NCBI GenBank assembly: GCA_011389655.1
Contig: JAABTX010000001.1
Location: 21,958-85,957 of the forward strand
From: Thioalkalivibrio sp.
GTDB lineage: Bacteria > Pseudomonadota > Gammaproteobacteria > Ectothiorhodospirales > Ectothiorhodospiraceae
Direction: 5' to 3'
DNA length: 64,000 nucleotides
Positions 45,542 through 63,863 of the stretch are shown here, in pieces. Position 1 is the first letter of the stretch. Every line of letters starts with the position of its first letter. Position numbers and translations under genes: made by a program. Under the pieces are notes generated by a model. That model was given only the letters and a program-made list of their open reading frames with translations. It was not told the origin of the DNA and made no database searches.

Positions 45542-46948
45542 CTACCCCGGGACCTCCAGCATTGCGACCGACGGGATGGTTCCGGGTGGTCTCCGCTCCC
45601 GCTCCCCTTGCTTGCCGGAGTTCGTGTCCGCGACCTGCTCCAGCGCACGGGCAAACGTAGAGACGCCGGAAGAGCGCAGCAGCACGCAGGGTTTTGCGTA
45701 GCGCTTGCAGAAGCGTTTGGAGCGGTTGTAGGCGTCGTGACTCACGCAGTCGATGGTGCAGATGACCACATCGGCCGATGACAGCAGGGAATTCAACCGC
45801 TGAGGCTTGTCCTCGATTCCGCCGTCGTGGTGCTCGAACTCGCCGTTGCACCGCGCGACCAGCTCCCGATAGTGTTCGATGACCTGGCTGCGTCCGCCAA
45901 CGCACAGGATTCGGCGACCACACAGATTGGGGCAGCCAGGCGGCCCTGAAGCCGAGCACCCGTCGCAGGCGTTGGCGCCTGGGTTCAGCAGGCGTTCGAG
46001 GGCCTGGCGCTGTGCCGATTGCTCATGGGCTTCCCGCGCCAGGGCATTCGCACGCCTGTTGGCGAGGTCGCAAGCATCCCTCCAATCCTTGACCTCGGCC
46101 CGGAGTCTTTCAGCGCGTTGATCGGCGGCGCGTGCGCGCCTCGCGTGGGCCGTCACACGCTCCTGGAGGCGGGTGCCCCCGAGGCTCTTGAGACGCTGGA
46201 TTGCGCCGGCTTCCCGGGCCTTCGCCAATCGACCTTCCTCCTGTGCGGTTGCAACCTGCGCCTGCAGCTGGCGGAGCCGCCGGTCGCGGTTGTCGATGGC
46301 TTGTCGATGGCGGTGTTGCTGCGCGTCCAATTCCTGGCGGAGCCGCTGGATCTCCGAGCGTGCGTCCTGGAGTTTCCTCAGATCGGCGCGTTGGCCCGCG
46401 CCGATCTGGTGAGAAAGCATGTGTATCTCTTCGTACGCGCTGTGGGTCAGGCGGGTGTCGCACAAGGGATGGGTGACCAACGCCCAGAAGCCTCCCGGAA
46501 CGTCGCCCTCATGAAGGGTTTGCTGCCACAGCGACTCGAGTTGATCACGCGACCGGGCACGCGTGAACCGCCGCACAAGACCGCCGTGGGTGCGTTCCAA
46601 GGCCTTCTGAGCCGCACGCGACAGCGCGTTGCGATGTTCGGACGAGGCAACCAGGTGCAGGTGGACCGCGTAGTCGGTCATGGCCTCCACAGCGACGCCC
46701 TGTGTTCTGGCGATGCGGCGCCAGGCGTCGATGTCGAGACAGGTGCCGATGACAGGGCAATGGAGTTGCCGACGCAGCTCCCAGAGCTTGCGTCGTTTGC
46801 GGGAAGGGGCCCCGGTTTCTCCGGGATGCCCGGCGCTGGCCGGCGGAGCCGACTGGGTCGGCTGCGCCGGGTGCGCCTCGCCCTGAGGGTCCCGCAGGAG
46901 CAGTACGGAGACCGGATTCGGCCTGCCATGGTTGATGCCGCCGCACAT
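45542..46948 (-). CDS. DUF2325 domain protein with long central coiled coil
   Basis: C-term RRILCVGGRSQVIEHYRELVARCNGEFEHHDGGIEDKPQRLNSLLSSADVVICTIDCVSHDAYNRSKRFCKRYAKPCVLLRSSG; coiled coil DARSEIQRLRQELDAQQHRHRQAID. Confidence 0.85.
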   Translation of the reverse strand: MCGGINHGRPNPVSVLLLRDPQGEAHPAQPTQSAPPASAGHPGETGAPSRKRRKLWELRRQLHCPVIGTCLDIDAWRRIARTQGVAVEAMTDYAVHLHLVASSEHRNALSRAAQKALERTHGGLVRRFTRARSRDQLESLWQQTLHEGDVPGGFWALVTHPLCDTRLTHSAYEEIHMLSHQIGAGQRADLRKLQDARSEIQRLRQELDAQQHRHRQAIDNRDRRLRQLQAQVATAQEEGRLAKAREAGAIQRLKSLGGTRLQERVTAHARRARAADQRAERLRAEVKDWRDACDLANRRANALAREAHEQSAQRQALERLLNPGANACDGCSASGPPGCPNLCGRRILCVGGRSQVIEHYRELVARCNGEFEHHDGGIEDKPQRLNSLLSSADVVICTIDCVSHDAYNRSKRFCKRYAKPCVLLRSSGVSTFARALEQVADTNSGKQGERERRPPGTIPSVAMLEVPG

Positions 46949-46964
46949 CGCTCTTACGGTTCCC

Positions 46965-47159
46965 TTACTTGGTCAGAATGAGCTTGCCGTTTCGGGTCTT
47001 GCGCAGGGTGTAGGTGTGGCCCTGGTGGTCGATTTGCAGGACCTGCGCGTTGCCGAACAGGACCTGGCTGTCGATCACCGCGGTGCCGACGTTTCCGCCG
47101 GCTGGTGCAGGACGCGCCTGTTCCCCGGGATGAGCCCTTTTTTCAGTCGATATCTGCAT
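46965..47159 (-). CDS. hemP: Hemin uptake protein HemP family
   Basis: VIDSQVLFGNAQVLQIDHQGHTYTLRKTRNGKLILTK: classic HemP. Confidence 0.92.
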   Translation of the reverse strand: MQISTEKRAHPGEQARPAPAGGNVGTAVIDSQVLFGNAQVLQIDHQGHTYTLRKTRNGKLILTK

Positions 47160-47172
47160 GATTGAGATCGCT

Positions 47173-47553
47173 TCAGAACCGGGTCCGCAGCAGCGTGGAT
47201 AGGGAATAGCTCACGCCCTTGTTCACCAGCATGTTCAGCGCGACCTTCCCGATTTCGGCGGCGATGGGACGCTGTGCAGCGGCAAATGTGCTCGGCGCGC
47301 GACCTCCCGGGGCCAGAGGGAGGGTTGCCTGAGGGCACTCTTGTTGCAGCCTCTGCAGGAGTTCGGCCCCCGAGGTCTCGCTGGTGTCGTAGAACACGGT
47401 GACGCTGCCGGCCTTCTCGTTCAGGCGCAGGCTGCGGACGGCGGGAAGGGCTCGCAGTCGGCGCAGGGCTTGCGAGCGCTCGCGGGATTCGCTTCGGAAC
47501 AGGCGCGCGCGAATACGCACGCGCCCGGGAACGTGATGCAGAAATTCGTTCAT
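47173..47553 (-). CDS. Small HMA_2-like protein with N-terminal GRVRIRAR motif (fez-like accessory, proposed)
   Basis: MNEFLHHVPGRVRIRARLFRSESRERSQALRRLRALPAVRSLRLNEKAGSVTVFYD: HMA-like fold lacking CxxC. Confidence 0.75.
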   Translation of the reverse strand: MNEFLHHVPGRVRIRARLFRSESRERSQALRRLRALPAVRSLRLNEKAGSVTVFYDTSETSGAELLQRLQQECPQATLPLAPGGRAPSTFAAAQRPIAAEIGKVALNMLVNKGVSYSLSTLLRTRF

Positions 47554-47636
47554 CGGAGGTCTCCAGTCAGGTCCTGTTGATCCCGGAAGGGCGAGACACC
47601 GTTCCGGTAGCTACGATACGACGATTGACATCGTAA

Positions 47637-47657
47637 TGCGAATCGTTCAGATTCGCA
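47637..47657. promoter_or_regulatory. Fur-box-like palindrome TGCGAATC-GTTCA-GATTCGCA
   Basis: Perfect 8-bp inverted repeat; flanking AATGCGAATCGTT resembles the Fur consensus AATGATAATCATT; lies between divergent genes 47553(-) and 47692(+). Confidence 0.65.
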
Positions 47658-47691
47658 ACCACAGTCACTATGATTTTCCGGGGAGAGGGCG

Positions 47692-48114
47692 GTGACGATC
47701 GTCAGCACACTGAAGGGTCGGGCCCGGGTTCGAGCGCGGGTGCTCCGGTCGCCGCGGGGAGCCACCCGCATTGCCGAGCAGATCGCGACGATCCCCGGCG
47801 TTCTCGACGTGCGCCCGAACCCGGCCGCGCGTTGCCTCGTGGTCACCTTCGCCCCGGATGTGCTGGAGATCGAGACGCTGGAGGAGCGAGCGGAGTCGCT
47901 TTGTCAGGCCGCCGAGCGGGTACCGCGTGGCAACGGCCGGGGCCTTTCGCGGCAGCTCAACCGCGCCACGAAGTACGGGATGCTCGCGACCCTGGCGAGC
48001 TCACTCGCCTATGGGTACCTGGGCCGGAAAAAGGCACACATCGGCTTCGGTGCCGCCTTTCTGGTCTTTGCCGGAGCCCATGTCTTCCGGTATCAGGGCA
48101 GCCTGATGCGCTGA
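47692..48114 (+). CDS. Small HMA_2-like protein with N-terminal GRARVRAR motif and C-terminal hydrophobic region
   Basis: MTIVSTLKGRARVRARVLRSPRGATRIAEQIATIPGVLDVRPNPAARCLVVTFAP...; TM-like GAAFLVFAGAHVF. Confidence 0.72.
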   Translation: MTIVSTLKGRARVRARVLRSPRGATRIAEQIATIPGVLDVRPNPAARCLVVTFAPDVLEIETLEERAESLCQAAERVPRGNGRGLSRQLNRATKYGMLATLASSLAYGYLGRKKAHIGFGAAFLVFAGAHVFRYQGSLMR

Positions 48115-48163
48115 TCCGCAACGCCCCAATCGCCCGTGCTGCCGCGAGCTGTGGCTCCTTCCC

Positions 48164-48544
48164 TCAGGTGTCCTCGGGTTCTTCCGACCTGCCTGCCTCG
48201 GCAGTCTTCTGCACACGCTTGCGCGCCGTGGCGCGCGTGGGGCTCTTGCGGGTGGTCGTCCCGCGCGTCGGGGTCCGTGGCTTGGGTCGCGGGGTTTCCG
48301 CGACCGTTGCGGCGCCAACGGTGGTCGGATCGGCATCCTGGCCGCGCTCGGGCAGGGACTCGCGACCCCTCCTCAGCCCCCGGGCGACCTTGGCGGAGAC
48401 CTCATCCGCGGTGTCCCGTGCCCTCCGGGACAGGCTGCCCGTCTTCCGGCGCAGGTCATCGCGAAGCTGTTCGTCGCGGAACAGGTAGACCGCCAGGCCA
48501 CCGACGACGGCACCGGCTACAAAGGGAATCAGGTGATAGGCCAT
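48164..48544 (-). CDS. Small YtxH-like membrane-anchored protein with basic disordered tail
   Basis: MAYHLIPFVAGAVVGGLAVYLFRDEQLRDDLRRKTGSLSRRARDTADE...; Thr/Arg/Pro-rich C-terminus. Confidence 0.7.
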   Translation of the reverse strand: MAYHLIPFVAGAVVGGLAVYLFRDEQLRDDLRRKTGSLSRRARDTADEVSAKVARGLRRGRESLPERGQDADPTTVGAATVAETPRPKPRTPTRGTTTRKSPTRATARKRVQKTAEAGRSEEPEDT

Positions 48545-48571
48545 GAGCAGGTTCCTCGATTCAAGAGCGTG

Positions 48572-50704
48572 TCAAAAGCGTGATGGGTAGTCGTCACGCG
48601 GAATCGTCACCCGGGACAGCGATGGCTCCGCGGAGTCCAGTCCGCGCAATGCCCTGACCAGCAATCCCACGGTGGTGCCGTTGTGCATCAGGGCGGTGGC
48701 CACTGGGGAGAGCCAGCCGAGCGCCGCACCGACCATCACGCCGGTATTGACCCCGATCGCCGCGCGGTAGTTGCTGGCGACGATGGCCATGGTGAGCTGG
48801 GCAACCTCGATCGCCTCGGGCAGCAGATCGAGCCGGTCCTCGAGCAGGACGACATCCGCGGTGGCGCGGGCCAGTTCCGTGCCGCGTGACATTGCGATGC
48901 CGACGTCGGCAGCCACCAATGCGGGGCCGTCGTTGACGCCGTCCCCGACAAACGCGACCCGGCGGCCCTCGGCCCGAAGCTGTTCCAGCACCCGGGCCTT
49001 GTCCTCCGGCACCTGTTCTGCAAAGACCTCGTCAATCCCGAGTTCCCGTGCGAGGGCATCGGCCCGGCGCCGCTGATCGCCGGTGAGCATTACCAGGTGC
49101 CGGATGCCCATGCGTCGAAGGCCGGCGAGCACCGCAGGGGTGTCATCGCGCAGCGTGTCGCGCAGGGCGATCAACCCGACCGCCTCACCCGCCGTGCCCA
49201 CGTACAGCAGGGTCTTGCCCTGTTCCTGGAGGACGGCGATGGCCGCCTCGAAGCCATCGAAGCGCACGCCGTGGTGCTCCTCGAGAAAATGCCGGCTGCC
49301 GATCAGGAGCCGGTCCCCGTTCACCGGACAGGTCATGCCATGGGCGACGAGGTAGTCGACCTCGCCATGGTCGATGTGATTGAGCTTCTCCTCGCGGGCC
49401 TTGCGCACGATCGCCTCCGCGATCGGGTGGCTGGCATGCTCCTCGATGGAGGCCGTTACCGCGAGCAGACGGGCTCGGGACCAGCGGGCCGTGTCCAGTA
49501 CGATCACGTCGCTGACTTCGAGATCGCTGTGTGTCAGCGTGCCCGTCTTGTCGAACACGACGGTATCGATCTCGGCCAGATGTTCGATGGCCTCACCCCC
49601 CTTGAGCAGGATGCCCTTCGAGGCGGCGCGGTAGATGCCGGAACGGAATGCGAGCGGGGTCCCGAGCTTGAGGGCGCAGGAATAATCGACCAGAAAGACC
49701 GATGCCAGGCGCCGCTGGTCGCCGGTCAGCGCGTAGATGAAACCGCCCGTGCCGAGGGTGAGATAAACGCGCTGATCGGCCAGCCGCTCCGCCATGCGCT
49801 GGGTGTCCGAACCCTTTTCCAGCGAGTTTCCGATGAAGCGGGCGATGCGCGCGGTGGTTGTCTCATCGCCCACGTGGCGGGCCTCGATCCGCAGCCGGCC
49901 GTCTTCGATCACGGTGCCGGCGATCACGTGATCCATCAATTCCTTCCGCACGGGGACGGGCTCACCGGTAATGCTGGACTGGTTGATCAGGGCCGTGCCG
50001 TCCAGCACGAGTCCATCCACCGGGATCCGCTCGCCAGGACCGACCTCGACGCGTTCTTCCATCCGGACCTGGTCGTCGGGAACCCGGACCAGCGTACCGC
50101 CCCGCTCGACCCACGCGAGGCCGGGTTCCGGCCGTAGCAGCCGACGCAGCATCCGGTCCGACTGTCGCTCCGTGCGGTGCTCGAGGTAACCGCCGAGCTG
50201 CATCAGGAAGTGGGTGACATTCGCGGTAAAATGCTCGCCCCGTCCGGCCGATAGACCGATCGCGATCGCATCAAGCACCTCCATCTTGATGCCCCGCCGA
50301 ATCAGCGTATCGAGACCCTGCACCAGCGTTCCACCGATGTTTACAAAGGTGAGCAGGCGTCGGACCGGCCAGGGCAGGAACGGCAGCGCGAGCAGTAGAG
50401 CGATGCTCCCGATCAACGGAGCGGCTTCGGCCTCCCGCGTGGGTTCAGCCGCGCCGCTCGGAATCCGTCGGCGGCGGAGCCCCCGAAGGCCGGCAAGGAT
50501 GGCCTCGCGGGTGGCCTCCCGGCCGTCGTAGGCGAAGATCACCGATGCAGCATGGCGATTGATTCTGACCGCCTCGACCCCTCGGATCGATTCCAGCCAC
50601 GTCTCGAGCCAGGAGAAATCGATCAGGGGGTCGGTCAGCAGCGGAAGCCTGAAGCGCAACCGGACGGGCGTTTCATGAATCAGCCGCAGACCGTTTTGCT
50701 GCAA
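48572..50704 (-). CDS. P1B-type heavy-metal ATPase with noncanonical SCA membrane motif (proposed FezB-like)
   Basis: DKTGTLTHS, MLTGDQRRRADAL, VAFVGDGVNDGPALVAADVG, HASHPIAEAI; membrane motif VDYSCALKLGTPLAF in place of CPx; N-term HETPVRLRFRLP and no CxxC. Confidence 0.93.
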   Translation of the reverse strand: MQQNGLRLIHETPVRLRFRLPLLTDPLIDFSWLETWLESIRGVEAVRINRHAASVIFAYDGREATREAILAGLRGLRRRRIPSGAAEPTREAEAAPLIGSIALLLALPFLPWPVRRLLTFVNIGGTLVQGLDTLIRRGIKMEVLDAIAIGLSAGRGEHFTANVTHFLMQLGGYLEHRTERQSDRMLRRLLRPEPGLAWVERGGTLVRVPDDQVRMEERVEVGPGERIPVDGLVLDGTALINQSSITGEPVPVRKELMDHVIAGTVIEDGRLRIEARHVGDETTTARIARFIGNSLEKGSDTQRMAERLADQRVYLTLGTGGFIYALTGDQRRLASVFLVDYSCALKLGTPLAFRSGIYRAASKGILLKGGEAIEHLAEIDTVVFDKTGTLTHSDLEVSDVIVLDTARWSRARLLAVTASIEEHASHPIAEAIVRKAREEKLNHIDHGEVDYLVAHGMTCPVNGDRLLIGSRHFLEEHHGVRFDGFEAAIAVLQEQGKTLLYVGTAGEAVGLIALRDTLRDDTPAVLAGLRRMGIRHLVMLTGDQRRRADALARELGIDEVFAEQVPEDKARVLEQLRAEGRRVAFVGDGVNDGPALVAADVGIAMSRGTELARATADVVLLEDRLDLLPEAIEVAQLTMAIVASNYRAAIGVNTGVMVGAALGWLSPVATALMHNGTTVGLLVRALRGLDSAEPSLSRVTIPRDDYPSRF

Positions 50705-50707
50705 CGT

Positions 50708-51046
50708 CTAATCCTCGTCATCCGGTGCCTGCGCGGTATGCAGTTCCGCCTCCGCGTCACGGAAGCGCTCCTTCATCTCTTCGACCCCGCCCTGAACCAT
50801 GGACCAGGCCCGAACCGCCGCCTTGATCGCATTGTGCTGAACGGTCTCATTGGTCAGCAGGTAGGCCGCCAGTGCCCCGACGAGTGCACCCTTCAGGAAG
50901 CGGGGATTGGTCAGGTGGCCACCGCCAGTGGGCGCCGCCGGCTGTGCAGGCGGAGGGGGATACCCGGGCCCCCAGGGGAATTGGCCGTGCGGGTAGCCCG
51001 GCGCATGACCGGTGGGCGGGTAGCCGTGTCCATAGGGGTTAGGCAT
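50708..51046 (-). CDS. Small Gly/Pro/Tyr-rich membrane-anchored protein (paralogous anchor with 51404-52051)
   Basis: MPNPYGHGYPPTGHAPGYPHGQFPWGPGYPPPP... FLKGALVGALAAYLLTNETVQHNAIKAAV. Confidence 0.75.
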   Translation of the reverse strand: MPNPYGHGYPPTGHAPGYPHGQFPWGPGYPPPPAQPAAPTGGGHLTNPRFLKGALVGALAAYLLTNETVQHNAIKAAVRAWSMVQGGVEEMKERFRDAEAELHTAQAPDDED

Positions 51047-51407
51047 CTGCGGGCTCCTTGCTTGGACGGGTCAGGGTGTACATCACGGCGGTGCCTGTGG
51101 CGAGGGTCGCCGCGAGCGCCAGGATACGGTTCGGGCCGGCCATGCGACCGGCCGCTGTCGCAGCGGCGGTGGCAATGCCGGCGTGGAGGCCGGCCTGGGC
51201 GGTATTGCGCAGGGCCGTCTGCCAGGAGCTCTCCTCCCGTTGCATCCGGTGCAGATTCACCGCGGCGGCGCCGGCGGTACCCACGATCGCCCCCGTCTTT
51301 CCCGCCGCGAGCAGCGTGTGCCATTCGGATGGGTGTGCCCGGGTGTACGGATCCAATGGCGTGTGCCGTCCGCCGTAGGACGGGTTCGGTGCCAGATGAT
51401 GGTTCAT
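51039..51407 (-). CDS. Small Ala-rich membrane protein
   Basis: MNHHLAPNPSYGGRHTPLDPY... AGKTGAIVGTAGAAAVNLHRMQ...AGPNRILALAATLATGTAVMYTLTRP; ATGA coupling to the upstream gene. Confidence 0.7.
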   Translation of the reverse strand: MNHHLAPNPSYGGRHTPLDPYTRAHPSEWHTLLAAGKTGAIVGTAGAAAVNLHRMQREESSWQTALRNTAQAGLHAGIATAAATAAGRMAGPNRILALAATLATGTAVMYTLTRPSKEPADA

Positions 51408-52051
51408 CGGGGGAAGTCCTCCGGTTGTGCCTGTGAACTGACTTCGGTGTTCGACGACTCGCCCGCGGTATCGGCATCGGTTTCCTGCCCGGTCCCGGCC
51501 AGGTTGTCCATCCCGGATTTCACGGCCTCGGCCGTCTTCGTGGCGCCGCCGACCAGCGCGTCGCGCAGGTTTTCGTTGGTGAGCAGCATCACTACGGCAG
51601 CGCCAACCATCGCCCCCTTCCAGAACTCTCCGTCGTCGAATCCGAAAAGGTCCTTGAGCATGCCGAGTCCGGCCTGATCGGCAAGACCGCCCATTGCGGC
51701 ACCAAGGCCCGACGATTCGGCACCCGGCGGGGCGGTGCCGGGTGCGGGTCCGGGCGCACCGTGTCCGAAAGGTGCGCCTCCGTATCCGGGTGGACCGTAT
51801 GGGCCGTATCCGTAGGGGGGTGAGCCGGGGCCGTAACCGGGTGGGGGGTACGCTGGCCAGGCAGCGCCTCCGGCCCAGCCCATCGCGGGGTGATGCGGCC
51901 AGGGCCCGATCGCGGCGGGCCCGTCGCCCGGCATTGGGCCCGCGCCCTGGGCTGGACCGGGATGTCCGTTCGGTGGAGTCGTGGCGCCGGCACTGGGGTC
52001 GGCGCCAGGGGCCGCACCGGCGTTTTGCCACGCGTGCTCGGGAGTATTCAT
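51404..52051 (-). CDS. Gly/Pro/Tyr-rich low-complexity protein with single membrane anchor
   Basis: PAYPPPGYGPGSPPYGYGPYGPPGYGGAPFGHGAPGP... then FWKGAMVGAAVVMLLTNENLRDALVGGATK. Confidence 0.75.
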   Translation of the reverse strand: MNTPEHAWQNAGAAPGADPSAGATTPPNGHPGPAQGAGPMPGDGPAAIGPWPHHPAMGWAGGAAWPAYPPPGYGPGSPPYGYGPYGPPGYGGAPFGHGAPGPAPGTAPPGAESSGLGAAMGGLADQAGLGMLKDLFGFDDGEFWKGAMVGAAVVMLLTNENLRDALVGGATKTAEAVKSGMDNLAGTGQETDADTAGESSNTEVSSQAQPEDFPR

Positions 52052-52428
52052 GTGGGCTCCTTGTTGGATGGGGTATCGAGCTCCCTAAACGGGGCATCGC
52101 GGGATCGGGCGGGCAGGGCCTGCTCGAGGAGTGCCTGCAGACCCCTTTGAGCATCATCGCGATCGCCTTTCAGCATGAGTTCCCAGGTGCCGGGGGTGAT
52201 GTGCCCGGCCGCGTATTCGATGATGATCGACCCCGCAGCGGGATTGATCCGCATACCGCGGATGCCACGAAGGGAGCGCAGTTCCTCGGTTACGCGGTTT
52301 CGGGCCACGCGATCGAGGTGCGACAGGAATGAGGGGGCGATCCGCAGACGGATCCGGCCGGGGACATGGTGGACGATCTGCACGTGGCCGCGCAGTTCCA
52401 GCAGGGTGTTGAGGTCGGGAGACGTCAC
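52048..52428 (-). CDS. Small HMA_2-like protein with HHVPGRIRLRI motif (start uncertain; ORF open to 52581)
   Basis: LRGHVQIVHHVPGRIRLRIAPSFLSHLDRVARNRVTEELRSLRGIRGMRINPAAGSIIIEY. Confidence 0.75.
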   Translation of the reverse strand: MTSPDLNTLLELRGHVQIVHHVPGRIRLRIAPSFLSHLDRVARNRVTEELRSLRGIRGMRINPAAGSIIIEYAAGHITPGTWELMLKGDRDDAQRGLQALLEQALPARSRDAPFRELDTPSNKEPT

Positions 52429-52640
52429 CGAAGCCACCGCCGAGTGATCGCGCCGCCGAGATCGGAGTCTCGACCCGATCGGGTTCGGGCATCGCGTTCT
52501 CTGATCGGGCGTCGGCGCCCTTTCAGACCGGGGTGGGGCGAGTAGTTCTGCATGTCCAGCTGCCTTGCATAGCCGCATCAAGGGGTAGATGGCTGGCTCG
52601 CGAACCTGAGGCGAAGGCCCCCGGGCAGGCTGGCTGGCTG

Positions 52641-55624: not shown

Positions 55625-56638
55625 CTAGTTCGTCAGGGAATGCTGGAAATCCTGCAGCATCTGATCGATCTGTGTGCGAATGCGTGCCTCATCCTTGATG
55701 GCGAAGTCGAGGAAGGTCTGGGCCACCGTGGACAGGACCTTGCGTCGTGGATGCACGATGTTCCACTGACGCACGATGGGAAACTGCGCGACGTCGAGAA
55801 GGCCAATGGGACCGCAGGTCCCTTCGGAACTGAGGGTGTGCAGTGACAGGACCGCGATGCCGAGGCCCCCGATCACCGCCTGCTTGATGGCCTCGTTGCT
55901 GCCGAGCTCCATGCGGATCTTCGGCTCGATGCCGTGGCGGTCGAAGAGCTTCCGTGTCGCCTCCCGGATACCGGATCCGGGTTCGCGCATCAGGAAATAC
56001 TCGCGGGCCAGCCGCTGAAGCGGTATGTTGCGGCGTCCGATCAGCGGGTGATCGCGCCGGGCCATGACTACGAGCGGATTCGGCGCGAAGGGATAGACGG
56101 CAACGTCGGTTAATTGATCAGGAACGTGACCGATTATGTAGAGATCGTCGTCGTTATTCGCAAGTCGCGCCAGCACTCGGTCATAATTGCTCACCTCCAG
56201 CGAAAGCTCGACCTCGGGATACCGGCGGGCGAACTGCCCCAGGATGCTCGGTGCCAGGTACTGCGCGGTGGTGATGGCGGCCAGGCGCAGGCGGCCGCGC
56301 TTCAGGCCGTGCAACTCGGCAAGCTTCATCTCGAGATTGCTGAGGGACCCCAGGATCTCCCGGCAGGCCTCGTACAGCACGTGACCGACCTCGGTGGGAT
56401 AGACCTTGCGGCCGACATGCTCGAACAGCGGCATGCCAAGTGCATCGGAGAGCTTCTTGATCTGGATCGAGACCGTGGGCTGGGTCAGGAACAGCTCCTC
56501 GGCGGCCTGCGTGAAACTGCCCAGTCTCACGATCGCCTCGAATACCTGCAGCTGGCGCAGCGTTGCGTGGCGGATCAGGTGGCCCGGCAGTTCCGACTTC
56601 AGCATCACCTGGCGCCCGGTCGCCTCGCGGGCACTCAT
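55625..56638 (-). CDS. cbbR: LysR-family regulator, CbbR-like
   Basis: RHATLRQLQVFEAIVRLGSFTQAAEELFLTQPTVSIQIKKLSDALGMPLFEHVGRKVYPTEVG; carboxysome locus context. Confidence 0.88.
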   Translation of the reverse strand: MSAREATGRQVMLKSELPGHLIRHATLRQLQVFEAIVRLGSFTQAAEELFLTQPTVSIQIKKLSDALGMPLFEHVGRKVYPTEVGHVLYEACREILGSLSNLEMKLAELHGLKRGRLRLAAITTAQYLAPSILGQFARRYPEVELSLEVSNYDRVLARLANNDDDLYIIGHVPDQLTDVAVYPFAPNPLVVMARRDHPLIGRRNIPLQRLAREYFLMREPGSGIREATRKLFDRHGIEPKIRMELGSNEAIKQAVIGGLGIAVLSLHTLSSEGTCGPIGLLDVAQFPIVRQWNIVHPRRKVLSTVAQTFLDFAIKDEARIRTQIDQMLQDFQHSLTN

Positions 56639-56699
56639 GCGGTCTCCGGTGCCGGGGGCAGGCGCGGATCCGGGCTGGCCGGAGCCGGCCGATTCGCGC

Positions 56700-56990
56700 T
56701 CAATTCTGCAGCTCGATCGAGGTGGTGTACATCAGCAGGCCATAGTTGTGCTCGTAGACCTCCTTCAGACGTGCGACGATGCGTTCGCACAACTGGGCGC
56801 TTCCTACCACCTCGATGCGGATGTTGCCGCCCTGAGTCCAGCGTCCGGCGCGGGTACCGTGCGTTCCACGGCCGCGACCGTCGATGATTGTATAGCCGTG
56901 CGCCCCCAGTCCGGTGATCTCGTCGATCAGGATGTCTTCCAGGACTGCCTCGGTGACGATCACCAGGAGAGTCATTGGCTTCGCGGTCAT
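56700..56990 (-). CDS. sbtB: PII-like protein, SbtB-like
   Basis: MTLLVIVTEAVLEDILIDEITGLGAHGYTIIDGRGRGTHGTRAGRWTQGGNIRIEVVGS; next to SbtA. Confidence 0.85.
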   Translation of the reverse strand: MTAKPMTLLVIVTEAVLEDILIDEITGLGAHGYTIIDGRGRGTHGTRAGRWTQGGNIRIEVVGSAQLCERIVARLKEVYEHNYGLLMYTTSIELQN

Positions 56991-56995
56991 GATTG

Positions 56996-57940
56996 TCAGG
57001 CTCCCATTGAATGGATGAACTTCGACATCCAGAAATAGATCGGGATGCCCACGAAGATGTTGAACGGGAACGTTACGCCCAGTGACGCGCCGATGGAAAG
57101 GGCCGGGTTGGCCTGTGGCACTGCAATGCGCATCGCCGCGGGAGCCGCGATGTAGGAGGCGCTTGCGTAGAGGGTCGCCAGCAGCATCGTGCCCCCCACG
57201 GACAGACCCAGCGCCCAGCCGAGGATCGTGCCCGCCACCGCCGAAAGCAGCGGCACGATGATGGCGAAGCTGGTCAGAAACAGGCCATAGTCGCGCAGCC
57301 CGGCAATCCGCGACGCAGCCACCAGGCCCATCTCGAGCAGGAACAGGGCGAGGATGCCCTTGAAGAGGTCGAAGAACAGGATGTCCAGCGGCTTGATGCC
57401 CTCCGCGCCGGCAACGAAGCCGATCACCAGGCCACCGGCGAGCAACAGGATGCTCTTGCCGAAGAAGACCTCGTGAAACAGCTTGCCCCAGCGGACCGTA
57501 CCGGCCCCGTAGCGCGCCAGCATCACCCCGATGACCAGCGCGGGCATCTCGAGCAGGACCAGGAAGACGATCATGAAGCCCTCGAAGTCGACCTCTTCCT
57601 GCGCGAGAAGGGACACACCCACCGAGAAGGTGACAACGCTCACCGATCCGTAATGTGCGGCAATGGACGCGGAGTCGGCGCGGGTCATCCGCCCGAGGTA
57701 ACGCAGCACCGGGAAGGACACCAGCGGGATCAGGGAGCCCAGAAGGAGGATCGCGAGCGATGGCACGATCAGTTCGACGAGCGGGAACTCCGCCAGCTTC
57801 ACGCCCCCCTGCAGCCCGATCGCGAGCAGCAGGAAGATCGACAGCGCGTCGTAGATGGACCCCGGAATCTTCAGGTCCGAGCGTACGAGGCCCGCAAAGA
57901 TCCCAAGCAGGAAAAACAGTACCACGGGTTCGAACTGCAT
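56996..57940 (-). CDS. sbtA: Sodium-dependent bicarbonate transporter SbtA (DUF897)
   Basis: LLGIFAGLVRSDLKIPGSIYDALSIFLLLAIGLQGGVKLAE, AAHYGSVSVVTFSVG, ASASYIAAPAAMRIAVPQANPALSIGASLGVTFPFNIFVGIPIY. Confidence 0.95.
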   Translation of the reverse strand: MQFEPVVLFFLLGIFAGLVRSDLKIPGSIYDALSIFLLLAIGLQGGVKLAEFPLVELIVPSLAILLLGSLIPLVSFPVLRYLGRMTRADSASIAAHYGSVSVVTFSVGVSLLAQEEVDFEGFMIVFLVLLEMPALVIGVMLARYGAGTVRWGKLFHEVFFGKSILLLAGGLVIGFVAGAEGIKPLDILFFDLFKGILALFLLEMGLVAASRIAGLRDYGLFLTSFAIIVPLLSAVAGTILGWALGLSVGGTMLLATLYASASYIAAPAAMRIAVPQANPALSIGASLGVTFPFNIFVGIPIYFWMSKFIHSMGA

Positions 57941-58879: not shown

Positions 58880-61234
58880 TCAACGGGTCAGTCCGATGTA
58901 GAGCATCGGCAGCTTCTCGGGAAGCCGCTCGACGTGATCGAGCACGGTGAAGTGGCTCATCCCGAAGATCCGGGAGACGTACTGGTCCGCGAGCGGGTCC
59001 AGTGACAGGGCATAGGTGGTGATGCCGTTGCGTGACAGTTCCTCCACCGCGCGCTTGGTGTCCTGGCGCAGGTACTGCGGATCCCGGACGTCGTTGTCCG
59101 CCGGCTCGCCATCGGTGATGACGAAGATCATCTTCTTGTTCTTCGGCTGCTGGTGCAGGTACATGCCCGCGTGACGAAGCGCCGCTCCCATGCGTGTCGA
59201 GTACGCACCCTGCATTCCGGACAGCCGTGCCTTCACCGCATCGTTGTAGGGTTCGTCGAAGTCCTTGAAGCGGTAGTAGTGGACGTCGTGTCGCCCGTCC
59301 GAGCAGAATCCATGCAGGGCGAAGGGGTCGCCGATCCGGTCCAGCGCATCCGACAGCAGGACGGTGGCTGCACGGGTCAGATCGAGCACCGTGTAGTCCT
59401 GGCCGCGGACCTTGTCGTTTGCCGACTCGGACATGTCCAGCAGTACCAGTACCGCGAGGTCCCGCACGTTGCGCTTGTAGCGCATCATGATACGCGTGTC
59501 GGGCTGCTGTCCGGTGCGGATGTCCACCATCGCGCGGACTGCCGCGTTGATGTCGAGCTCGTCGCCGTCCTCCTGGCGTCGCAGCCGCTGCATGCCCTGG
59601 GGGATCATGGATTCGATGAGGAACTTGATCCGCGAGATCACCGGCTTGTGTTCCTCGGTGATCTCCTCGATGCGCTCGAGATCGCCGGGCTGGGGCCGGC
59701 GTTCGAGCACGGTCACCCAGCTCGGCCGCTCGAGCTGAATCTGGTAGTCCCATTCGTGGTAGTGGAACGGATCCGAGACCGGGGGCTTGCCCTCGAGTTC
59801 GTTGATGGTCACGCCTTCCTGATCGAGGTAGAACTCGGTCGGCAGGACCCAGACCTCCTGGGCATCGTCGCCGGCAAACTCGTAGTCGAGCGTGTTCACC
59901 ATCTCCATGACGCTGACCGTCTTGCGCACCTGCTTGGGCGCCCAAGTCGCATCCAGGGCGGTCTCGACGTCGTACTCCTCGGATTCCCAGACGGTCCGGT
60001 TGTCGTCCCGATAGATCGCGCGGAGCCCGTCGGTGCGGAAATTGAACTCCGGCAGTGGCAGCTTCGCAAGGCTGTGGGACAACTCCACCCCGATGTTCCA
60101 GCTGATCCGGTTGCTGGAGAGATCCTCTTCCGCCCGAAACAGGGCCACGCCCTGCTGTACCCATGGGTGCGGGTCGTCGGACTCGGGATCGAGCAGGGCC
60201 AGGGCCAGCCGGTTCAGCAGGTCCCCCACCGTCTGGGGATCGCCCCGTTCAAGGGGCGGGTGCAGCTTCAACCACGCCCCGCGCATTCCCGGAAACTGGC
60301 GGCAGGCCAGTTCCTCCACCCGCGCATCCTCGACCGCCTCGATGATCGCCATCTGCGTGTTGTCGAGCTGCTCCATTGACAGGGGGTTGCGAGTGAAGAC
60401 CAGGTGTGCGGCACAGTGGTTGGCGGCGGCACGGTAGATCTCGACGCCAGAGACCACTGCCTCGTCAGGCGTGTCGTCGCCGTAGGGGCGGTAGTCGTCG
60501 TAGGCATCGGCGATGTGGATCACGTAGTGCTCGATGTAGGGCTTCAGGCCCTCGCGGCTCTCGAAGTCGCCCGCGGTGGGCCGGAGAAAGAAATCCCGCC
60601 CCCACATCGCGCGCAGGTAGATGTTCAGCCGCCGCTGGATATCGACGAAGAGCGTGCCCTTGCGCTCGGTCTGCAATACCGAGTGGGAGTCCGGGCTCTC
60701 CAGCGAGAAGTAGCGGACCTGGCCCTCGAAGTCCGTCTTGTACGCCTGCGCTCCCCAGTTTACCCAGCGCCGCAGCCCGCCCAGCGTGAGCTGCGTCAGC
60801 AGCTGGTCGAGATTCTCCAGCATCGGCCGCAGGCCGCGCGGCGCCTGGCCCAGCATGACCTCCAGTACCTTCAGGTAGTTGCGGAAGAGCCCCGGATCCC
60901 CGAGGCGTTCGGCGGCGAGCGGTGAGGTCCCCACCACCAGCGTGAGGACCTGCCCGGAGGTCTTCGAGGCCATGCTGAGGAGGAAACTGACCAGGTCGGG
61001 GAGGTTGTCTTCGCCGATCGCCCGCGCCATTTCCGGCATCTCCTGGAGATAGGTGACCACGAGCTCCTTGCCGCGTCCCAGCTGATGCAGGGCGACGGCC
61101 CCCTTCAGGTAGTTGTCCAGCCCCCGCGAAGAAAAGACGCGCGCCGCCTCGTTCCAGGAGGCCCGCAGCACGTCCTGGGCATCGTGCGGAAGATCCTCCA
61201 GGATCTCCGCGTAGTCTTCGAGATGGATGGCCAT
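58880..61234 (-). CDS. cbbO: Rubisco activase subunit CbbO (vWA domain)
   Basis: MIDAS motif VLVLLDMSESANDKVRGQDYTVLDLTRAATVLLSDAL...IFVITDGEPADNDVRDPQYL; adjacent to cbbQ. Confidence 0.94.
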   Translation of the reverse strand: MAIHLEDYAEILEDLPHDAQDVLRASWNEAARVFSSRGLDNYLKGAVALHQLGRGKELVVTYLQEMPEMARAIGEDNLPDLVSFLLSMASKTSGQVLTLVVGTSPLAAERLGDPGLFRNYLKVLEVMLGQAPRGLRPMLENLDQLLTQLTLGGLRRWVNWGAQAYKTDFEGQVRYFSLESPDSHSVLQTERKGTLFVDIQRRLNIYLRAMWGRDFFLRPTAGDFESREGLKPYIEHYVIHIADAYDDYRPYGDDTPDEAVVSGVEIYRAAANHCAAHLVFTRNPLSMEQLDNTQMAIIEAVEDARVEELACRQFPGMRGAWLKLHPPLERGDPQTVGDLLNRLALALLDPESDDPHPWVQQGVALFRAEEDLSSNRISWNIGVELSHSLAKLPLPEFNFRTDGLRAIYRDDNRTVWESEEYDVETALDATWAPKQVRKTVSVMEMVNTLDYEFAGDDAQEVWVLPTEFYLDQEGVTINELEGKPPVSDPFHYHEWDYQIQLERPSWVTVLERRPQPGDLERIEEITEEHKPVISRIKFLIESMIPQGMQRLRRQEDGDELDINAAVRAMVDIRTGQQPDTRIMMRYKRNVRDLAVLVLLDMSESANDKVRGQDYTVLDLTRAATVLLSDALDRIGDPFALHGFCSDGRHDVHYYRFKDFDEPYNDAVKARLSGMQGAYSTRMGAALRHAGMYLHQQPKNKKMIFVITDGEPADNDVRDPQYLRQDTKRAVEELSRNGITTYALSLDPLADQYVSRIFGMSHFTVLDHVERLPEKLPMLYIGLTR

Positions 61235-61273: not shown

Positions 61274-62206
61274 TCAGAAGTAGGTGGTCACGGCCGAATC
61301 CAGCGCGTCGCGCATGTCCGGATCGTCCGTGATCGGCCGTACCAATGCGACCCGGCAGGCGGCCAGCGGCGATACGCCCTTCGCGATCAGGGAACCGGCA
61401 TAGATCAGCATGCGCGTGGACAGGCCCTCGTCCAGGCCGTGTCCCTTGAGATTGCGCGCGCGCTCGCCGATGTGCACCAGGTTCTTCGCCGTCTCGATGT
61501 CCACCCCGGTTTCGTGCGCCACGATCTCCGCCTCGACGTCGTGTTCCGGATAATTGAAGTCAAGGGCGCCGAAGCGCTGCTTGGTGGACTGCTTGAGGTC
61601 CTTCATCAGCGACTGGTAACCGGGGTTGTAGGAGATCACGATCTGGAAATCCGGATGGGCCTCGATCACCTCTCCCTTCTTCTCCAGCGGGAGCGCCCTG
61701 CGTGCATCGGTCAGCGGATGGATCACCACCGTGGTGTCCTGGCGCGCCTCGACGACCTCGTCGAGGTAGCAGATCGCGCCGTGGCGCGCGGCTACCGCGA
61801 GGGGCCCGTCCTGCCAGCGGGTGCCGCTGGCGTCGAGCAGGAATCGCCCGACCAGGTCGGAGGCGGTCATGTCCTCGTTGCAGGCCACCGTGATCAGGGG
61901 TTTGCCCAGCCGCCAGGCCATGTACTCGACGAAACGGGTCTTGCCGCAGCCGGTCGGTCCCTTGAGCATCATTGGCATGCGCACGGAATAGGCGGCCTCG
62001 TAGAGGTCCACCTCGTCCGTCACCTGACGGTAGTAGGGCTCCTCCCGCACCATGTAGGGGACGAGCAGATCGGCCGGTGGTGGCGTGTCGGCCGCCGGGC
62101 GGGCGGTGGCTGGGCGGGAGACCGCCGGCCGCGCGGCGCCCGGTGAGTAGGACTTGCGGCGGGGTGCGTAGGTTCGCGTGAAGGGGTCGCGGGACATGTT
62201 GGTCAC
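61274..62206 (-). CDS. cbbQ: AAA+ ATPase CbbQ
   Basis: [22 protein letters not shown] (Walker A), [11 protein letters not shown] (Walker B), [10 protein letters not shown]. Confidence 0.96.
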
Positions 62207-62223: not shown

Positions 62224-62529
62224 TCAGTCCGGCCAGACGCGGTCGGGGAAGAGCGCGGTTCCGCTCTCCGGGACCTCGTTCGCGGACGCGGGCTTGCCGC
62301 GCTTGGCGGTCGTGGCTCCCGGCTTCCGGGGGGTTGCGGGGGCCTTGCGCGCGCCGGACCGCGGCCTCGCGGCTGGCTTGCCGGTGCTGCGCGCCGGCTT
62401 CTTCGGTTCCGCGCCGGCCTGGCCTCCCGACTTCGCGGACCCGGTTTCGGGCTTGCCTTCGGCCTTGGGATCCTGCTCCGCCTTGGCCTGGCGGACGCTT
62501 GCGGACAGCTTTTCCTTCGTGGTCGTCAT
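62224..62529 (-). CDS. mcdB: Carboxysome positioning protein McdB (alpha-type)
   Basis: 101-aa basic, Pro/Ala/Lys-rich disordered protein directly after the ParA/McdA gene; ends [11 protein letters not shown] with a near-C-terminal Trp as described for alpha-McdB. Confidence 0.8.
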
Positions 62530-63161
62530 AATCCGATCACCTCGTCGATCACGGCTTCGATTTCGGCCGTCGCCGGTGTTCCGCGACGACCCAGCTGGTA
62601 GACGGAAACCCCGTCCAGTGCGGCACTCCTGTAGATCGCCCGACGGCGGATCGCGGCCTGCAGCACCGGCACGTCGAACTCCTCCAGGGCGTCGCGCATG
62701 GATGCCGACAGTGCGCTGCGCGGCTCCATCTGGTTGAGCACCAGGAAGGCCTTGAGCCTGCGGTTGACCTTGCGTGCCTCCGCGATCTCGACCGGCAGGC
62801 GCAGACTGGCCCACAGGTCCACCGGAGACGGCAGAATCGGAATCAATGCCACGTCGCAGGCGCGGAGCGCCTGCAGGGAGGCATGGCTCTCGAGCGACGG
62901 CGGACAGTCCAGCACGGTGTAGCGGTAGGCGCGAAAACCCTTCTGCAGCGTCCCCGCGTCCCAGTCCCCGAACATCTGCTTCACGGTGGCGGGGAAGGGT
63001 GCGTTGCCGAGGCTTGCCCACTGGCGTGCCGAGCCCTGCGGATCGAGGTCGATGACCACGGTGTCGCCCCGTCGGGCCAGGCCGGCGGCCAGATTCATCG
63101 CCAGCGTGGTCTTGCCGGCGCCGCCCTTCTGGTTGACCACCGCGGTGACGTGCGTCGCCAT
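62526..63161 (-). CDS. mcdA: ParA-family ATPase McdA
   Basis: [48 protein letters not shown]; deviant Walker A; carboxysome context. Confidence 0.93.
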
Positions 63162-63162
63162 T

Positions 63163-63432
63163 TCAGCTTGCCGCCGGTCCCGAGAGCGCATTGATGCGCG
63201 CCGCGAGTGCGTATTCTTCCTGTCCGGGCTCACCGCCGTCGGGCGCCTCCAGCGTGATGTTCGCATAGGTGGTGCCGAAACTGATGTTCTGCGGGTGCAT
63301 GCCGGTCTCCTCGGACAGATCGGCCAGTCCGTCGAGAAACAGCCGCGTCTCCCGGTAGCTGCCGAATTCGAAGCGGCGGAACAGCGCCGGCGGACGGCCG
63401 CGAAGTTCCCAGCCCTCTGGCGGTTCCATCAT
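63163..63432 (-). CDS. acRAF, pterin-4a-carbinolamine dehydratase-like Rubisco assembly factor
   Basis: [60 protein letters not shown]. Confidence 0.9.
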
Positions 63433-63863
63433 GTCTTGCCCGGCGCCTTCAGCATGTCATCGATCTCCCGTACGTGGGCCAGTTCCTCCTCGAGGATGTC
63501 GCGCAGCAGTTCGGCTCCTTCCGCGTCGCGCATGCGCTCGGCATGGGCGAGGGCGTCGCGGTACAGCCGCACCGCATCAACCTCGAGAACGCGACCCGCC
63601 GCGAGGAGGTCCTCGACGCTTCGACCCAGGCGGGCCGGCTTCAGGTTGCCGGCCGACGGTGCCACGCCGAGCAGGATCAGCCGCTCCATCAGGCGTTCGG
63701 CATGTGCCAGTTCCTCCACCGCCTCGCCGCGCAGGTGCTCGGCCAGCGGCTCGTCACCCCACAGTCGGGCGAGGACGCTCTGGGCGAGGTACTGCTGGAC
63801 CGCGCCCATTTCGTGCGTGAGTGCACGGGCCAACCAGCCGATGGCCCGGGGATCCACACTCAT
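63429..63863 (-). CDS. Bacterioferritin-like (ferritin-superfamily) protein of alpha-carboxysome locus
   Basis: ALTHEMGAVQQYLAQSVLARLWG...EAVEELAHAERLMERLILLG...EEELAHVREIDDML. Confidence 0.88.
   Translation of the reverse strand: MSVDPRAIGWLARALTHEMGAVQQYLAQSVLARLWGDEPLAEHLRGEAVEELAHAERLMERLILLGVAPSAGNLKPARLGRSVEDLLAAGRVLEVDAVRLYRDALAHAERMRDAEGAELLRDILEEELAHVREIDDMLKAPGKT

Follow-up and report, generated by a model that had tools for sequence, protein, structure and literature searches.

What does the gene cluster at positions 45542 to 52428 of the stretch of Thioalkalivibrio sp. DNA analysed here (64,000 nucleotides of contig JAABTX010000001.1, positions 21,958 to 85,957; hereafter the window) give rise to: an iron-storing organelle or a metal pump in the cytoplasmic membrane? 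A first-pass annotation, made from the letters and their open reading frames, had taken a P1B-type ATPase and its small neighbours for a ferrosome (fez) cluster, a set of genes that makes tiny iron-storing sacs of membrane. Judging by sequence comparison, we consider it likely that the locus is indeed of the ferrosome type. We favour this reading because the ATPase belongs to a separate clade with an unusual motif in its fourth transmembrane segment (TM4) and no CxxC, because its accessory families are kept in 16 relatives, because all HMA_2 matches of the genome lie at this locus and one of them is modelled with an HMA fold, and because iron-linked genes adjoin the relatives. A further ground is the homology of one small protein to the magnetosome protein MamC, which we assessed against controls and by comparing magnetite-interacting residues. 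The genes are listed in Table 1.

The ATPase and the genes kept beside it

The ATPase is a heavy-metal P-type ATPase of 710 residues (TIGR01525, 506 bits), whose TM4 reads VDYSCALKL (SCALKLGTP in the first-pass annotation) and which, as stated there, has neither CPx nor an N-terminal CxxC. Its N-terminus matches HMA_2 (PF19991, E 2.6e-4). The tree in which we placed it was built by maximum likelihood and also holds CopA, ZntA and KdpB of E. coli, two ATPases with the motifs TPC (P1B-5-type; S. meliloti pSymA) and SPC (P1B-4-type; Streptococcus azizii), CPC pumps from Bacteroidota and the CPC/CPH pumps of the genome itself. One clade (support 100/99) unites the window ATPase with 12 others, with SCA in TM4 of all members except one, and with H10, R15 and R17 unchanged in 13/13 aligned sequences. 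This SCA clade is separate from CopA, ZntA, the SPC-motif and TPC-motif ATPases and the genome's own Cu-type pumps; its nearest outsiders are two Deinococcus ATPases, one of which adjoins a DUF6110 gene. Clustering with Cu or Zn/Cd exporters, the outcome that the first-pass annotation had named as counting against a ferrosome, was thus not seen. The window ATPase shares the P-type core, DKTGT and an HMA-fold N-terminal domain with CopA (P1B-1) and ZntA (P1B-2), but the missing CPx and CxxC and the clade placement set it apart from these exporters of Cu or Zn/Cd. Judging by its motif, the SCA clade is probably P1B-6 in the published sense. A review gives Fe(II) as the substrate of P1B-6 ATPases (PMC7558416), which is another reason for the ferrosome-type reading.

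Three small HMA_2-like proteins flank the ATPase, as had been noticed at the outset; apart from them and the N-terminus of the ATPase, four matches in all, nothing in the 3.46 Mb genome matches HMA_2. Accessory proteins of this HMA_2/GRxR type around FezB are a feature of ferrosome clusters, and this locus has them. The basic motif that had been seen near their N-termini is real, because the residues of G-R-x-R and a distal N never vary among the 18 HMA_2 proteins of the related clusters. For HMAa, structure prediction gives an HMA/ferredoxin-like domain (core predicted local distance difference test, pLDDT, >90) with the GRxR motif on or adjoining the first strands; its nearest matches in the PDB are the domains by which RAN1 and CopA bind metal (Foldseek prob 1.0, E 1.6e-3 to 8.6e-3). 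HMAc homologues head seven clusters (L007, L010, L031, L067, L068, L080 and L081), and HMAb homologues are present in four (L007-L010). The start of HMAc had been put at 52581; comparison with relatives points instead to GTG at 52428 as the most likely start codon.

How well is the arrangement of these genes conserved? The same families are clustered in 16 relatives: metagenome-assembled genomes of Chromatiales, Chromatiaceae and Hahella; Thioalkalivibrio sp. XN8, Thiorhodospira sibirica and a congener (G010); the Gammaproteobacteria G391 and G299; a Vibrio megaplasmid, a conjugative Cereibacter plasmid and Azospirillum and Arcobacter plasmids; and four genomes from other classes of the phylum. 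The usual order is HMAc, P215, MamC-like, P112 and ATPase, with HMAa nearby and HMAb or the YtxH-like gene sometimes present. P112 sits directly before the ATPase in every intact relative and weakly matches the DUF6110 gene adjoining a Deinococcus ATPase; we regard it as a positional candidate for FezA. P112 and P215 have a Gly-zipper-like segment in common (hhalign prob 98.0), and a segment EFWKGA(M/L) is nearly invariant in the P215 family (n=11). Within the main operon, consecutive genes overlap by 4, 4 and 8 bp and a gap of 3 bp precedes the ATPase, which makes the translational coupling proposed earlier plausible. Iron-linked genes adjoin some relatives, with FeoA, TonB receptors and FecR beside the Cereibacter cluster and the ferritin-like DUF2202, together with DUF2325, beside the Arcobacter cluster.

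Table 1. Genes of the cluster, ordered by position in the window
Gene product	Position	Strand	Match or remark
DUF2325 protein with N-terminal extension	45542..46948	-	PF10087 95.7 bits, E 2e-27
HemP (hemin uptake protein), downstream of HMAa	46965..47159	-	PF10636 64.6 bits, E 7e-18
HMAa, HMA_2-like, motif HHVPGRVRIRAR	47173..47553	-	PF19991 30.3 bits, E 4.7e-7
HMAb, HMA_2-like with longer C-terminal region	47692..48114	+	PF19991 23.0 bits, E 8.2e-5
YtxH-like protein	48164..48544	-	PF12732 23 bits, below cut-off
FezB-like P1B-type ATPase	48572..50704	-	TM4 SCALKLGTP; N-terminal HMA_2-like domain without CxxC
P112, small Gly-zipper-like protein directly upstream of the ATPase	50708..51046	-	conserved tail EEMKERFRDAEAEL; family of 13
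MamC-like protein, remote MamC homologue	51039..51407	-	NCBIfam MamC E 4.6e-9; hhalign prob 98.6
P215, Pro/Gly/Tyr-rich N-terminal half, then Gly-zipper-like segment	51404..52051	-	EFWKGAMVGAAVVMLLTNEN; family of 11
HMAc, HMA_2-like, motif HHVPGRIRLRI, first gene of the operon	52048..52428	-	PF19991 35.6 bits, E 1.1e-8

The MamC-like protein

MamC is a magnetosome protein that shapes magnetite crystals in magnetic bacteria. Its relationship to the protein at 51039-51407 had been overlooked at first; the profile and structure search of the small reading frames that the first-pass annotation recommended brought out, besides the HMA fold modelled for HMAa, a match of this protein to the NCBIfam MamC model (NF038051; E 4.6e-9, 36.5 bits). 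This score lies below the curated cut-off of 100 bits, as does the best one among the cluster-bearing genomes checked (44.7 bits), and both proteins are short, Gly/Ala-rich and of membrane type. Conceivably, the resemblance might be compositional, the chance likeness of two unrelated Gly/Ala-rich helical hairpins. We judge this highly improbable in view of where the matches lie and how the profiles compare. The model is matched independently by 11/13 MamC-like family members from related clusters, and 8/8 cluster-bearing genome entries (seven distinct, G032 and G062 being the same place) have a single match, at the cluster; none occurs in 14 control genomes. Among 398 Pseudomonadota genomes the model matches 16, of which 13 hold true MamC (118-141 bits) and three are sub-threshold (the window, G391 and G299). 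Each of these three adjoins a FezB-like ATPase, a gene found in only 8/398 genomes, and by hand calculation over the 385 genomes without true MamC the chance of this coincidence is ~6e-6 (8x7x6 / 385x384x383). True mamC and a FezB-like ATPase occur together in 0/398 genomes, none of the 13 MamC genomes having the ATPase.

Profile comparison argues in the same direction. A family profile built from the syntenic genes aligns with true MamC by hhalign at prob 98.6 (E 1e-15, score 91.6, 82 gap-free columns), whereas the highest control, the cluster family against P112, reaches prob 20.5. P112 and P215 against MamC give prob 0.2 and 0.3, and the c subunit of ATP synthase, a hairpin rich in Gly and Ala and about as large, gives 0.1 with the cluster family and 1.3 with MamC. 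Among 100 column-shuffled MamC alignments the top score is 17.4, and the reversed alignment gives 18.9, compared with the real 91.6. We discarded an iterative family profile, which had drifted into P112 and P215 via Pro/Tyr-rich starts and the glycine-rich helix. In a tree, true MamC proteins occupy one side of a branch of moderate support (89/86), which gives no direction of descent. The predicted structure of the MamC-like protein consists of helices only (pLDDT 70), and a search of the PDB returned no significant match. The commonest hits of this helical model were of Tim17/22/23 type (a complex I subunit, TIM22/TIM23), all non-significant (E >=1.7). Taken over the helical hairpin, the protein is in all likelihood, and on alignment evidence almost certainly, a homologue of MamC.

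How far does the likeness to MamC extend? The two proteins align without gaps over the whole helical-hairpin region, are of the same size and are encoded by genes for iron-organelle membrane proteins, in the window's case on the ferrosome-type reading; the window protein differs in its sub-threshold score and in its FezB-like neighbour in place of a magnetosome cluster. A further difference lies in an acidic pair. Glu66 and Asp70 of MamC are iron- and magnetite-interacting residues (PMC6584501). We mapped them to columns 46 and 50 of the alignment (L052) by their four-residue spacing and the invariant Asp, a presumed correspondence. The Asp70 column holds Asp in 10/10 magnetosome MamC proteins as against 1/13 fez-type proteins, and the Glu66 column is acidic in 10/10 as against 5/13; in the window protein, Thr stands in the Glu66 column and Asn in the Asp70 column. 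Because the pair is mostly not conserved in the fez-type proteins, the MamC-like protein probably still serves as a scaffold of the membrane, without templating magnetite, and the missing acidic face is consistent with an iron store other than magnetite.

Ferrosomes and magnetosomes count as genetically distinct organelles, and a single cell can contain both. The presence of a MamC relative in this cluster suggests that they share a building part, and its recurrence in ferrosome-type clusters of Gammaproteobacteria and Campylobacterota may link the two organelles at the sequence level. We envision that the MamC-type hairpin might be an ancient common component, a general membrane scaffold of iron organelles that carries an acidic magnetite-templating face only in its magnetosome version; we see the chances for and against this as evenly balanced. 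Fez-type and magnetosome MamC would then offer a natural comparison for the residues that set the type of mineral. No paper joining MamC with ferrosomes was found in the literature searched, which excluded two primary ferrosome papers (Grant 2022, Pi 2023). In three clusters from other classes of the phylum (L081, L082 and L083) the MamC-like gene is missing, and there is no space between P215 and P112. The gene is therefore not essential to this cluster type.

An iron compartment, a plain pump or a heme system

How might such a locus work? What we observed is the set of genes, the clade of the ATPase, the conserved gene order, an HMA fold in the model of HMAa and the homology to MamC; from these we infer a substrate, a compartment, a topology and a mode of regulation. 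In the scenario that we envision, the FezB-like ATPase would pump iron, most likely Fe(II), from the cytosol into small membrane compartments, whose membrane P112 and P215, with their Gly-zipper-like segments, and the MamC-like membrane protein might form or scaffold. The HMA-fold GRxR proteins would act on the cytosolic face, where they could bind the N-terminal domain of the ATPase or the iron/phosphate load. The YtxH-like gene, which the first-pass annotation had not singled out, is kept in five clusters and encodes a protein with a single, strongly hydrophobic segment and, after it, an extended basic tail of low complexity; the five are L007, L008, L009, L010 and L042. The tail might bind phosphate-rich material. 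It is histone-H1-like in composition, rich in Lys, Arg, Thr and Ala, and a similar one occurs in L009.

Small proteins organise or stabilise some mycobacterial P-ATPases. Alternatively, the locus could encode a plain efflux pump for Fe(II) or another divalent metal that works in the cytoplasmic membrane with accessory proteins of a regulatory kind and forms no organelle, the small membrane proteins serving to organise or stabilise it. P1B ATPases are mostly exporters, the related Deinococcus ATPases (L036, L037) adjoin only a single small gene, and organelle formation is not something that a sequence can reveal. Against this stands the number of conserved small genes: five to eight, including Gly-zipper, MamC-like and HMA_2 genes, are more than known exporters have, and the set resembles six-gene fez operons, so that we think a plain pump unlikely. 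A heme- or oxidative-stress-related metal system, in which HemP and DUF2325 would act in heme handling and the ATPase would move heme or another metal, seems to us far less probable still. HemP adjoins HMAa and likewise lies near two related clusters (L007 and L010), and DUF2325 recurs beside clusters in three distant genomes (the window; L082:2211-3515; L033:4494-4826) and adjoins the Arcobacter clusters L033/L035. A C. jejuni DUF2325 protein, encoded next to katA, is strongly induced by light and by stress from reactive oxygen species (PMC9426514). Most related clusters, however, are without HemP and DUF2325 but retain genes for the ATPase, for P112 and for HMA_2 proteins. The first-pass annotation was right that both genes are present, but placed them in a divergent unit; they share the strand of the ATPase and come downstream of HMAa, and the sole plus-strand gene of the cluster is HMAb.

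The ferrosome-type reading can also be held against described fez clusters. Those of D. magneticus, R. palustris, S. putrefaciens and C. difficile likewise combine, by their published descriptions, a non-Cu/Zn P1B ATPase with a small-protein operon, and iron-linked genes adjoin the relatives of the window cluster. Six-gene fez operons, in work by Grant from 2022, reportedly suffice for ferrosomes. The alphaproteobacterial cluster L081 is such a six-gene operon (HMAc-P215-P112-ATPase-HMAa-HMAb) and matches six window families, and R. palustris, too, has six fez genes (RPA2333-2338; PMC12016538). The first impression of a set expanded over fezABC is thus only partly right: the window does have additional genes (YtxH-like, HMAb, HemP, DUF2325 and MamC-like), but a set of six is already known.

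Several observations weigh against a ferrosome. The small proteins had been called membrane-anchored; the genes are there, but in P112 and P215 no 19-residue window reaches a Kyte-Doolittle value of 1.5, so that their anchoring is suggested only by a weakly hydrophobic Gly/Ala segment. The ATPase tree was built without any proven FezB sequence. FezC of the D. magneticus type is a DUF4405-like cytochrome (PMC10979944); the cluster holds no DUF4405/FezC match, with two marginal ones elsewhere in the genome, an absence that does not by itself exclude ferrosome membership. In C. difficile, ferrosome expression responds to iron via Fur (PMC12574912), and a search for Fur boxes ahead of the operon and among relatives found no consistent site, the best upstream of the operon scoring 9/19, a value that 96% of shuffles reach. 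Ferritin-family genes are present in the genome as well, one of them in the window. Finally, narG was not found in its own genome, so that no simple link to nitrate respiration is seen. Within the genus such a link was likewise rejected: narG occurs in 2/30 genomes and the ATPase in only one of those.

Spread of the cluster and the genes around it

SCA-clade clusters span Gammaproteobacteria, Alphaproteobacteria and Campylobacterota, and several are plasmid-borne. The ATPase is present in only 2/30 genomes of the window's genus; the cluster is therefore unevenly distributed, and it is probably mobile or else frequently lost. If the ferrosome-type reading is correct, a likely iron-storage organelle belongs to a carbon-fixing sulfur-bacterium lineage, in the same family as Thiorhodospira, and also resides on plasmids, one of them conjugative, by which it may spread. 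The plasmid-borne clusters (L031-L035) come from Cereibacter azotoformans (conjugative), the Vibrio megaplasmid, Arcobacter and Azospirillum. In G350 the ATPase gene (L084:6234-8375) is split by an in-frame TAG, with no accessory genes beside it, and this is probably a decayed cluster.

Further along the window, a bacterioferritin-like gene (63429-63863; TIGR00754 72.7 bits, Pfam Ferritin) lies near genes for a ParA-type ATPase (62526-63266), a CbbQ-like AAA protein (61274-62206) and a VWA protein (58880-61234), a group of the sort expected where a carboxysome operon ends. Next to the iron cluster lies a carbon-uptake unit (55625-57940), made up of genes for a LysR regulator whose nearest relative is CbbR, a P-II-like protein and a bicarbonate transporter of the Sbt_1 family.

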